A DNA stretch of 64,000 bases, taken from the NCBI GenBank assembly GCA_030770425.1, contig JASJFT010000065.1:62001-126000 (forward strand), given 5' to 3'. The position numbers and the translations under genes were made by a program. The notes beneath the pieces were generated by a model. It did not search any database and was not told the DNA's origin. It saw only the letters and a program-made list of their open reading frames with translations. This DNA is from Darksidea phi. Its lineage: Eukaryota > Ascomycota > Dothideomycetes > Pleosporales > Lentitheciaceae. Positions within the stretch are counted from its first letter, which is position 1. Every line of letters begins with the position of its first letter. Below, piece after piece: positions 41,426 to 59,632 of the stretch.

Positions 41426-44391
41426 CTACTCTTCATCCTCGTCATCCTCCTCTGCATCCTCTGCATCCTCGGCAATTTCCTCCTCCACCCCCTCTGCATC
41501 ACCCTCACCATCGTCTTCCCGTACCAAAAGATCTTCTACCGTTCCACCTTCACGCTCCAACCTAAGAAATTCATCCCACTCGGGGAACATGTCCTCATCG
41601 CCTTCCCCGTCTTGTGGCGGAACCCCCAACAACCTTCCCACCTTCCCCCTGTTCTCTTTCTCCAAGCTAGCTTTCCACTGTTTGACCAAGGCATTGGTCT
41701 GACTCGGTTTATACGTTTGACTGAACAACACCGCCTCAGCAAGTCGGTTGGTCTTCACAAGGAGATCAATGCAGCCCTGTACATCGCCGATTTGCCAAAG
41801 CGCGCTGAAAGCGATGTTGTTCGCAGAGGCGGCAGTGGCGAGGGAGGCGAGATCGCGGAGACCGGAAGAGTCCGAGGTGGCACTGTAGACGAGGAGGAGG
41901 GAGCCCAGATCCTTGGCTTTGACGAAGCATTCTTGTGCGAGTGAGACATTCCAAGCACTGAGCGCGGCGTCACCGACGGTTTTCCACTTATGCTCCGTAT
42001 CCTGCTCACGGGCAATGTCGACAGCTTGTTGCAGGTCGCCCAGCGAGAGGGCGAGATCGAAGCGGTGTTCTGGATCCGTGGCAACCTTGAGCGCAAGTTC
42101 CTTGTACCCCTGGCCTTCAAGGAAGCGTGCGATCTTGTTGTTTTGGTCTTTTGGGACGGAAGGTAGGACTTCTTCGGCAGCCTCGAGGTCGCCGCGGAGA
42201 ACAAGTGTTTGGTATTCAACAACGGCTAGCGAGAGGGCGAAAGAGACAACGTTGACATCCTTGTCGGCAACGTAGATCCTCGAGTCGCGAGGAAGGTAGC
42301 CAAGCACGTAGTGAGGAGCGTCGAAATGCGAAATCGTGTAGGTTTGGTCTCCGACCAGGTAGTTCAGGCGGTTGGTGCTATTTGTGTAGATGAAGCAATC
42401 GCCGACCCAGGTACCAGTTCGCACACTATATCATAGTTAGCCACTGCGTCATCTCCGAAGTGGGTTGTTCGTACCTCTCGTTGATGTCGCATACAACCTC
42501 GAAAGCTGACTCGGCACCATCCTCATCAATGTCCCCATTTTGTAATGCCTCGAGATAGTTCTCCCGTGAATATCGCAGAACATAGAATGTATCTTCCGTT
42601 GCCAGCGTGACAAGCTCACCACTCTCAGACCAGTAGACATCCTTTGGCTCAACCTCTATTCTCCGAACGAGAGCGCCGCTGTCCCAGTCGAACAAGCCAA
42701 TGCCACCCTGGCCCTTAACTCCAAGAAGAATGCCACCGCTAAGGCCGTCAGCTGAGAAGCCAACATTCAACACACTTCTCTCTTTGAAGTTACGGAAAAT
42801 CTTGACGCTGGTAGAGGATTCCCGGATAGCGAAGTCCTTGTCGTGCTCCTTGGACGCCCACGCAAAGTCCAGAGCAGAGCCGAAGGCTTGGTTTCGGAGA
42901 GCGAGCGCAGTGTAGATGATGTATTCGCCATCACCGCATACAGCTACGAATCGTCCGTTCGGCGAGTGTAGCAGTGACTGCGGATAGATCTCGGTCGATC
43001 CCAGATCCTTGATGGGGAGAGTGAGACGTTCAGAATCCTTTAGCTTCTCATTTCCTTTGATCACCGTGGTGAGAATCTCGTTGTGCCTAGCCCAGAGCAG
43101 TTTGCCTCCCGAATCCATACTGACTGCCGGCTCCTCGCGACCCATTGAAATAACAACAGCTCCATCGTCGAAACCGAGCGCGACACCATTTTTGCCCTTC
43201 TGGTAGGCCACACACCATGCCCGCTCGAGTCCGTAATTCAGTGATTGTTCTAACCGGTACGTCGAGGAGTGCCAGATCTTGATTGTGCCGTCCTCGGATC
43301 CGGAAATGATGACTGGGAGTTCGGGGTGATACACGGCAAAGCTGACATTCGATGTGTGTCCCTCCAATGTAGCAATGAGGGCCTTTGTGGTGTAGTCCCA
43401 CACCTTGACGGTTCGATCGTCGGATGTTGTGAGGAGGTACGGCTTGTCGGACTGTGGATAGTAGTCGATGAAATTGACGCCCTTGGCTTCATGCGCCTCG
43501 AGAGTGAAGTTAGGGGTTGAGCTGCCCAAAGACCATATCTTAACTGTCCTATCGAGACATGCCGAGGCGAATGTATTGGGGTCTTTTGGGTTAATGGCAA
43601 TGCCCATAACGTAGTGTCCGTGGCCCTCGAATACTTGGACGCCTGCGAGCTGTTAGCGCCGATGCGCCTAGGGAGGCTGTAGTGCGCACATTTCCACGAC
43701 TTGTCCCAATCCCACAGCTTAATGGTCATGTCATCCTGTAATTGCGTCAGCTCCGTCTTACGCTCGTGTTCCTGTAGGTACTCACGCTTGCGGTCAAGAC
43801 GAACGGCTGCGTCGGGTGCACAGCGATCGCACGAATGTAGTCCGGATGCGCCTCAAATTCCGTGATCTTCTCCGAGGTGTTGTAGTTGTACACTCGCAGT
43901 CTAAAGTCGTCCGAGCCTATATTGAGCCCTGTCAACCTCCTATTCAATAGGTACAAAGCCTGGGTCTCCCACCAGCGACTATCCAGTTTTTCCGCGCAAT
44001 GAAACGACCTGCTCGTACAGGCACATCGGTGAGTTCGAACGTCTTAACAATCGATTGCGAAACATAGGACCATATGTGGACGTGACCTGCCCTCATCAGC
44101 ATGCTCCCTCACTCCATTGCTCTGGCTATGCATACCGCTATATAACGTCGTGAGGATCCATGGCTCAGTAGGATGAAAGTCTTCGGAGCTCTTTAGCATG
44201 CATCGAGGTGTCTAGCGTCGCGGATCCTACCAATTCCTATCCCAAGTTAGTTCATCATCCTTGATATCGTGGGCGCCGCAAGCTCACCTTTGACCCTCTC
44301 CGACCGCGCAAAAAGTTGCCTCTATATTTCATACTATATTAGCCTTGCCTCTGGAATAGGCGTGCTCTCGTACCTTTACGTCCAAACGCAT
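41426..44391 (-). CDS. SEC27: COPI coatomer subunit beta' (SEC27)
   Basis: Beta'-COP is a coat subunit of COPI vesicles and binds dilysine cargo signals for Golgi-to-ER retrieval. Nine exons were deduced: 44374-44391, 44288-44321, 44231-44236, 44136-44180, 43973-44086, 43786-43916, 43690-43735, 42475-43642 and 41426-42425, giving 853 residues. Exon 1 encodes only MRLDVK. The next splices build [20 protein letters not shown] in the conserved family order; residues GI come from a 6-nt microexon. Two N-terminal propellers follow ([61 protein letters not shown]), then the alpha-solenoid (about 600-800) and a very acidic tail. All introns are 47-56 bp with GT-AG ends. Confidence 0.96.
44231..44236 (-). 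other. SEC27: 6-nt microexon of SEC27
   Basis: On the minus strand the order is intron ending GGGATAG, exon GAATTG, intron starting GTAGGA. With flanking phases it encodes Gly-Ile inside the conserved [12 protein letters not shown] motif. Skipping it also keeps the frame but deletes those two residues. The flanking introns are 51 and 50 nt. Confidence 0.8.
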
Positions 44392-58941: not shown

Positions 58942-59465
58942 GACATTAACTTGGAAGCGTATGGGCAGGAAAGATTTTCGGCTCTGTGAAAAGTTTGGCG
59001 ATCTGTAATGGTGTGCGAGTGGGTGTCGTTCAAGGGAACTTTACACGCAAGTCTTAGTTATGGTTCGAGATGATGAAATTTCTGCTTGATGCGTTTTGAC
59101 GGCACACGCTGTGCCATCCATTGGTTGCTTGTGCTATTTTATATCATGCTTTCGTCTGTACGTGTCCAGGACGGTATAGTATTCTAGAAGGAGCCGTAAT
59201 GGTTCATTTTGGATGTTAGCCTTTTCATTGGCATGTCTTCAGAATTATATGGTTGGCCCCACCCAAAACAGCCGGCGCTTAAGATAGCGGTCCAATCGTC
59301 GCCCAATAGTTACAGGGTCTTTGCGTTACCGAGATCTGCCCCGCTCCGCACAAAAGACGACTAATTTGGCAACAAGGGCTTCCATGTCTTCTCTCTTGTA
59401 CTCTTCTAAACCTGGTATATAATGTTAGTTATTATTCCGAATCTTCATATTCAATACAAACAACA
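58942..59465. other. Intergenic region before tRNA-Glu
   Basis: 524 bp holding the DUF6594 3' UTR and the tRNA 5' flank. No gene supported. Confidence 0.45.
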
Positions 59466-59612
59466 TCCGATATGGTCTAGTGGCTAGGATTTGCCGCTCT
59501 CATCGCAGAGTAACTACACTTGTAGTGCCGGCAAGGCCCGGGTAAGTGACTCTAAGTCATTGCCTTGATCTATCCAACTAATTCCTGATAGGTTCGATTC
59601 CCGGTGTCGGAA
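59466..59612 (+). tRNA. tRNA-Glu (CTC) with two intervening sequences
   Basis: The exons match fungal tRNA-Glu: acceptor stem TCCGATA with TGTCGGA, A-box-like TGGTCTAGTGG, anticodon arm TGCCG-CTCTCAC-CGGCA with anticodon CTC at 59499-59501, and T arm ending TTCGATTCCCGG. The first insert (59503-59527, 25 nt) lies after position 37, the normal site for tRNA introns. The second (59542-59591, 50 nt) interrupts the 5' strand of the T stem. It starts GTAAGT, contains CCAACTAAT and ends GATAG, so it looks like a spliceosomal intron. Removing both leaves exactly 72 nt with all stems intact. The B box GGTTCGATTCC survives across the second junction because the insert ends in AG. A pseudogene interrupted by an insertion is possible, but the precise boundaries argue against it. 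Confidence 0.88.
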
Positions 59613-59623
59613 TTCCAGTATAC

Positions 59624-59632
59624 TTTTTTTTC
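59624..59632 (+). terminator. Pol III terminator of tRNA-Glu
   Basis: A run of nine T starts 12 bp after the discriminator base, as expected for RNA polymerase III termination. Confidence 0.8.

Follow-up and report, generated by a model that had tools for sequence, protein, structure and literature searches.

A tRNA-Glu(CTC) gene of Darksidea phi is interrupted in its T stem by a 50-nt insert (59542-59591 of the window, the whole 64,000-nt stretch of DNA that was analysed) which, judging from its sequence, is very probably a genuine U2-type spliceosomal intron in a working Pol III tRNA gene. It is one of at least 22 such inserts in 20 of 58 parsed nuclear tRNA genes; the feature extends genome-wide, beyond the single gene visible in the window. 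The anatomy of the introns, the restoration of a tRNA on their excision, the promoter and terminator context and the presence or absence of inserts among paralogues are all read directly from the DNA.

Anatomy of the tRNA-Glu(CTC) gene

The first-pass annotation described a 25-nt insert after position 37 and a separate 50-nt insert in the T stem, and both are present, at 59503-59527 and 59542-59591. The gene and its surroundings are laid out below.

59416..59422, plus strand: TATA-like element TATATAA, about 50 nt upstream (sequence)
59466..59612, plus strand: tRNA-Glu(CTC), complete gene (direct reading of the sequence and parsing)
59466..59502, plus strand: exon 1, from the acceptor 5' strand to A37 (identical among three paralogues)
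59473..59483, plus strand: A box (TGGTCTAGTGG) of the Pol III internal promoter (motif match)
59503..59527, plus strand: ordinary 37/38 intron of the tRNA-endonuclease type, 25 nt, after A37 (parsing; ARAGORN)
59528..59541, plus strand: exon 2, comprising C38, anticodon 3' strand, variable region and T-stem 5' strand to CCGG (parsing)
59542..59591, plus strand: T-stem intron of the spliceosomal type, 50 nt, GTAAGT...CTAAT...GATAG (sequence, signal counts)
59542-59547, plus strand: donor GTAAGT (sequence)
59578..59582, plus strand: branch-point-like CTAAT, second A at 59581, 10 nt from the intron end (sequence)
59589-59591, plus strand: acceptor TAG (sequence)
59591..59601, plus strand: B box GGTTCGATTCC, rebuilt over the 3' splice site (motif match)
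59592..59612, plus strand: exon 3, comprising G53, T loop, T-stem 3' strand, acceptor 3' strand and A73 (parsing)
59624..59632, plus strand: T run, presumed Pol III terminator (sequence)

The A box (TGGTCTAGTGG) and B box GGTTCGATTCC were assigned by their motif consensus. The T-stem insert follows the 51st mature nucleotide, that is 52/53, off the canonical 37/38 position where the separate 25-nt intron lies. The GTAAGT donor, CTAAT element and TAG acceptor ascribed to it can all be read in the sequence, and the B box stands in the DNA at 59591-59601, restored by the insert's final AG as had been proposed. Taking both introns out leaves the expected 72 nt, read by ARAGORN as tRNA-Glu(CTC); on the unspliced gene ARAGORN made no tRNA call, and the Rfam tRNA model gave 26.9 bits against a cut-off of 29. 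A hairpin reported just after the donor (59547-59559) does exist, but the intron of the paralogue described below as copy B has, by eye, no counterpart at the matching place, so the hairpin is given no role and was rejected as a functional element.

Paralogues with and without the insert

A whole-genome search with the window gene (51.35 Mb, 477 contigs) recovered two further tRNA-Glu(CTC) loci in the same genome; the window gene is copy A.

C335:189362-189514, minus strand: copy B, 51-nt insert at the same site, GTAAGC...CTAAT...TAG
C198:22059-22155, minus strand: copy C, anticodon intron alone, no T-stem insert

The exons of the three copies are identical over 72 nt, and their 37/38 introns measure 25 nt (A), 30 nt (B) and 25 nt (C). 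The inserts of copies A and B agree in donor, branch and acceptor, whereas their interiors, with the donor hexamer and last 15 nt excluded, show no similarity beyond that of shuffled sequence, a score at least as high being reached by 385 of 500 shuffles; the anticodon introns of the same two genes match in 23 of 30 columns. With the splice signals shared and the interiors unrelated, either the signals have been kept or they were gained twice at one site. The genome search returned no second close copy of the window gene's T-stem intron.

Similar arrangements are found in other families. Of three Ala(AGC) genes with identical mature sequences, one has the insert after nt 51, another after nt 57, and the third lacks it; for iMet there is an unsplit copy whose mature sequence is the same, and for Ile(AAT) one whose sequence is nearly so. 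The unsplit counterparts at insert sites are Glu copy C and the genes on C429 (Ala), C334 (iMet) and C101 (Ile).

A census of split tRNA genes

Besides the 20 split genes, the 58 parsed nuclear tRNA genes include 38 without a spliceosomal-type insert. The split genes are Glu(CTC) (two), Glu(TTC), Ala(AGC) (two), Gln(TTG), iMet, Lys(TTT), Arg(ACG) (three, two of which are a recent duplicate), Arg(TCT), Val(CAC), Ile(AAT), Leu(TAG), Leu(CAA), Ser(CGA), His(GTG), Met(CAT) and Pro(TGG), with two inserts each in Arg(TCT) and Leu(CAA). The inserts follow mature nt 9, 18, 19, 23, 26, 29, 34, 44, 46, 50-53, 57 and 58, and so lie in the D, anticodon, variable and T regions, once within the anticodon itself (Leu(CAA), nt 34); the two tRNAs split after nt 58 have long variable arms. 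Introns at 37/38 occur in many of the split genes too.

Split genes came from weak Rfam tRNA matches, from one donor-plus-B-box pattern and from loose B-box-plus-T-run patterns, the last of which required no splice sites and supplied the loci for 13 of the 20. Of the B-box-plus-T-run searches, one gave 66 matches against 12 in a backward control and the other, AGTTC plus a T run, 88 against 77; for the donor-plus-B-box pattern the corresponding figures were 5 and 10. Pattern counts are weak by themselves, as the last two pairs show, which counts against the spliceosomal reading; genes were separated by inspection only, with intron boundaries set by eye, GT and AG in mind.

Rfam returned 59 tRNA matches, from which 17 on C304 and C417, judged mitochondrial-looking, were excluded. 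The remaining 42 comprise 5 split genes, 29 unsplit genes and 8 loci set aside as repeats (L022, L023, L028, L026), for a short T loop (L041, L061), as organelle-like (L044) or for a damaged B box (L047); Glu copy C was added to the unsplit genes and Glu copies A and B to the split ones. Another 35 loci were chosen by eye from the pattern searches for tRNA-like tails. These gave 13 split and 8 unsplit genes (L111-L114, L118-L120 and L125, the last with an uncertain anticodon); L107 was dropped as damaged, L100 as a 3' fragment and L121 as a repeat, and L097, L104, L105, L106, L110, L122, L124 and L126-L129 were not tRNA or were unparsed. A second elongator Met copy (L135) lies outside the 58. 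Rfam, run on 13 odd or unparsed loci, called tRNA in two, L022 and L023. The census is partial, Rfam having scored 63 of 1735 candidates and overlooked ordinary tRNAs that later searches found, and within it no gene was recognised for Phe, Trp or Gly(GCC).

Splice signals of the inserts

How closely do the 22 inserts resemble mRNA introns? All begin with GT and end with AG, as boundaries placed with GT and AG in mind would. All 22 also have G at +5 (mean 3.7 and maximum 10 in 2000 shuffles), and 20 have a CTRAY with its A 9-12 nt before the intron end (mean 0.65, maximum 4, again in 2000 shuffles). With both signals far above shuffles over 22 inserts, the insert in the window gene is not a product of chance. 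Donors are GTAAGT (9), GTAAGC (3), GTACGT (3), GTATGT (2) and five single forms, and acceptors TAG (13), CAG (6) and AAG (3); lengths run from 47 to 66 nt with a median of 51, and the exon base preceding the insert is G in 17 of 22. The two inserts lacking CTRAY, in Lys(TTT), with TTTAAC, and in Ser(CGA), with CTAAA, are a point against the spliceosomal reading. T5 occurs within none of the 22, where 0.29 would be expected by chance; with no power in that comparison, T-run avoidance was dropped as a sign of Pol III.

For comparison, the window holds two introns in a coatomer beta' gene.

43643-43689: coatomer beta' intron, 47 nt, removal restores the protein
43736-43785: coatomer beta' intron, 50 nt, removal restores the protein

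These two resemble the tRNA inserts, and their branch A lies 10 and 11 nt from the end (counted by eye). Removing four coatomer introns did not give one frame at the 5' end, and the comparison uses the two junctions above; a third, 44237-44287, is backed by just two residues. Across the window, 26 of 36 mRNA-type candidates have their branch A 9-11 nt from the end, under a pattern that permitted 8-18. With the tRNA intron included there are 37 candidates against 14.65 in shuffles, and with an excess of only 2.5-fold some of the mRNA-type candidates are chance. The coatomer beta' protein has database matches at 92-95%; a PHD/SET protein of the window has its best matches in Pleosporales, with Lentithecium fluviatile (Massarineae, Lentitheciaceae) at 82% and two others at 83-84%.

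Ectopic tRNA introns are known in eukaryotes, and those of Cyanidioschyzon are cut at bulge-helix-bulge (BHB) sites. The inserts might likewise be real introns that the tRNA-splicing endonuclease and ligase remove from unusual positions, a situation known from Cyanidioschyzon and perhaps shared by the Guillardia nucleomorph, and the 37/38 introns in many split genes fit such a route. We consider this very unlikely: in a simple helix test, short of a full BHB model, the BHB central helix was found at the exact junctions of none of the 22 inserts and, with ±1 slack, at one (Lys(TTT)), where chance gives 3.75, and neither a +5 G nor a CTRAY at a fixed distance is known to serve the endonuclease.

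Spliced products as tRNAs

After excision, the split genes form 138 of 140 acceptor pairs and 99 of 100 T-stem pairs, against 73 of 100 T-stem pairs when unspliced. The Arg(ACG) gene on C124 has two acceptor mismatches, was never accepted by ARAGORN and may be decaying; the Ile(AAT) gene on C177 has one T-stem mismatch. Run on the unspliced split genes, ARAGORN makes no call for 11 of 20 and misnames the isotype of 5; the 4 that it names correctly are reached via other parses. With 11 overlooked and 5 misnamed, the phenomenon may be commoner than has been noticed. The right isotype is returned for 14 of 20 with the inserts removed, for 17 with the anticodon introns also removed, and for 19 in at least one of these two forms.

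An upstream TATA-like motif accompanies 19 of 20 split genes and 19 of 29 other tRNA genes. A downstream T5 follows 20 of 20 and 27 of 29, respectively, a comparison biased for the 13 genes that were found through T5. By the pattern used here, 19 of 20 split genes have an unbroken B box in their DNA, the exception being Ala on C132, and a strict A-box pattern is matched by 15. Because inserts that precede G53 or T54 end in AG, the insert supplies the G of the B box. The iMet insert (L024, C312:8150-8600, minus strand), in the T loop, splits the gene's B box and holds its own, GTTCGATTCC.

Two genes have a more elaborate structure. Leu(CAA) (L099, C85:54250-54600, minus strand) has two spliceosomal-type introns, one at C34|A35, together with an endonuclease-type anticodon intron, and as parsed it shows a T-T mismatch in the anticodon stem. 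In Arg(TCT) (L108, C432:65450-65820), two spliceosomal-type introns lie five exon bases apart and are accompanied by a 10-nt anticodon intron.

For nine anticodons the split gene is the only intact one found in this partial census (sole copies, ESSENTIALITY): Glu(TTC), Lys(TTT), Gln(TTG), Arg(TCT), Leu(TAG), Leu(CAA), Ser(CGA), Val(CAC) and Pro(TGG). Intact unsplit copies were found for Glu(CTC), Ala(AGC), iMet, Ile(AAT) and His(GTG). A DNA search for elongator Met gave two loci: one is the split gene, and the other is a copy with, by eye, TTAAT in its T loop. By the wobble rules, several of the sole-copy anticodons are irreplaceable by other tRNAs. As the census is partial, the sole-copy pattern is a strong hint, short of proof.

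Could the split genes instead be inactive copies, redundant tRNA genes broken by intron-like or random DNA? Short D- or T-arm inserts in eukaryotic tRNA genes are usually read as marking pseudogenes; an unsplit copy exists here for five affected isoacceptors, and the Arg(ACG) gene on C124 has its acceptor mismatches. The first-pass annotation had itself allowed for an interrupted copy among intact ones, and to the extent that one of three Glu(CTC) copies lacks the insert this holds, but the 19 other split genes disagree with it. For some of those 19 no intact intron-free copy was found, and the same-site inserts of copies A and B share splice signals only, which disfavours the dead-copy reading. 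Against it also stand near-perfect exons, as counted above, the identical exons but differing introns of the Glu, Ala and iMet copies, the retained TATA and terminator context, the nine sole-copy anticodons, and a CTRAY at the right distance in 20 of 22 inserts, which random insertion would not lead one to expect. We hold inactivity to be very improbable. That the loci are Pol II parts of longer transcripts, with the tRNA-like sequence incidental and the introns those of a Pol II RNA, is scarcely credible: spliceosomal introns do normally belong to Pol II transcripts, but here the intron ends are placed so that 20 genes (one flawed) regain a tRNA on excision, and B boxes, and T runs right after the tRNA, are retained.

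Discussion

The reading of the T-stem insert as a spliceosomal-type intron, which began with the window gene, fits the sequence-level tests, and splicing is what we infer from them. About one third of the tRNA genes examined are split by mRNA-type introns at unusual positions, so these tRNAs probably depend on the mRNA-splicing machinery. Taking the evidence jointly, we think it likely that in this fungal lineage the spliceosome has taken on an essential part in tRNA maturation. Spliceosomal introns would have invaded about one third of the nuclear tRNA genes, including the sole intact genes found for several indispensable tRNAs (Lys UUU, Glu UUC, Gln UUG and probably elongator Met), and would have been kept where the Pol III boxes survive or the intron supplies them, tying tRNA supply to mRNA splicing capacity.

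From the same sequences we infer Pol III transcription, removal by the spliceosome and an order of steps. TFIIIC and Pol III would transcribe the split genes using A and B boxes that are mostly uninterrupted by the introns, the terminal AG of the intron providing G52 or G53 and the iMet intron bringing its own B box. The spliceosome would then join the exons after recognising GUAAGU, CUAAY and YAG in the short intron. The D, anticodon or T arm would be able to fold only once the spliceosomal intron had been removed; thereafter the tRNA endonuclease would take out the 37/38 intron, and RNase P and tRNase Z would trim the ends. If true, spliceosome-made tRNAs would depart from tRNA splicing as described and would couple translation to splicing. 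They would also allow intron gain into RNA genes to be studied in a natural setting, since paralogues with identical exons differ in having the intron at one site, at a different site or nowhere.

In the open-access literature, by titles and the starts of abstracts, no report of spliceosomal introns in nuclear tRNA genes was found; subscription papers fall mostly outside that range, and an earlier mention is possible. The comparison draws on PMC8527467, PMC6652019, PMC8450103, PMC3978253, PMC13149111, PMC11782384, PMC10484740, PMC6461891, PMC11889510 and PMC4090602. Intron type and host genes are known separately, and their genome-wide combination in tRNA genes is new within the reach of these searches.

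Among the closest known cases is the U6 snRNA gene of Schizosaccharomyces pombe, a Pol III transcript with an mRNA-type intron that is spliced in U6 maturation and is thought to stem from reverse splicing (PMC10484740). Unlike that single gene, itself part of the spliceosome, 20 tRNA genes are affected here, and the genome's own U6 is intronless. Short spliceosomal introns also occur in ascomycete and lichen nuclear rDNA, where a 57-bp lichen intron in a Pol I transcript is spliced in yeast (PMC8527467); in both cases a gene for a structural RNA has short spliceosomal introns, the host being a Pol III tRNA here and a Pol I rRNA there. In Cyanidioschyzon merolae and the Guillardia theta nucleomorph, tRNA introns lie in the D, anticodon and T arms, at times several per gene. 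However, those of Cyanidioschyzon have BHB sites and those of Guillardia are 3-24 nt long with the mechanism given as unknown, unlike the inserts here, which are 47-66 nt long with mRNA splice signals and no BHB helix. Canonical eukaryotic 37/38 introns, removed by the Sen endonuclease, are common to many of the same genes and differ from the spliceosomal-type inserts in position and signals. The introner-like elements of Dothideomycetes are described as a means of intron gain, spreading as invasive introns (PMC4457414). They resemble the present case as intron gain in related fungi and differ from it in that no multiplied intron sequence is found among the 22 inserts. An introner origin was rejected: words longer than 10 nt are common only to the recent duplicate pair, and the genome search showed no other close copy of the window gene's intron.

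As a further host gene U6 was rejected too, which is a point against the spliceosomal reading: one full-length match lacks an intron and three weak ones fall below the cut-off. The U6 gene (C179:23388-23487, no intron) has a B-box-like site downstream, and a weak partial U6 match lies at C179:22609-22648 on the opposite strand. For rDNA, the sole 5.8S match is at C368:191152-191283 (49 bits), and the 14.5-kb stretch holding it showed no SSU or LSU landmarks above chance; the rDNA array seems to be absent from the assembly.

Other tRNA-like loci

Shortened T loops recur in tRNA-like genes, namely the elongator Met copy L135 (C1:608518-608554, minus strand; TTAAT), L041 (C51:47971-48038, minus strand) and L061 (C119:9624-9693, minus strand), the loop of the Thr(TGT)-like copy being shorter than TTAAT. 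At L104 (C252:31550-31900, minus strand), where no tRNA was parsed, a long near-perfect hairpin within GTATGC...ACCAG is followed by a B box and a terminator. There are two repeated tRNA-like families, one of L022, L023 and L028 (C187, C425, C158) and one of L026 and L121 (C29, C334); L022 and L023 have a long common 3' flank and resemble tRNA-derived SINEs.
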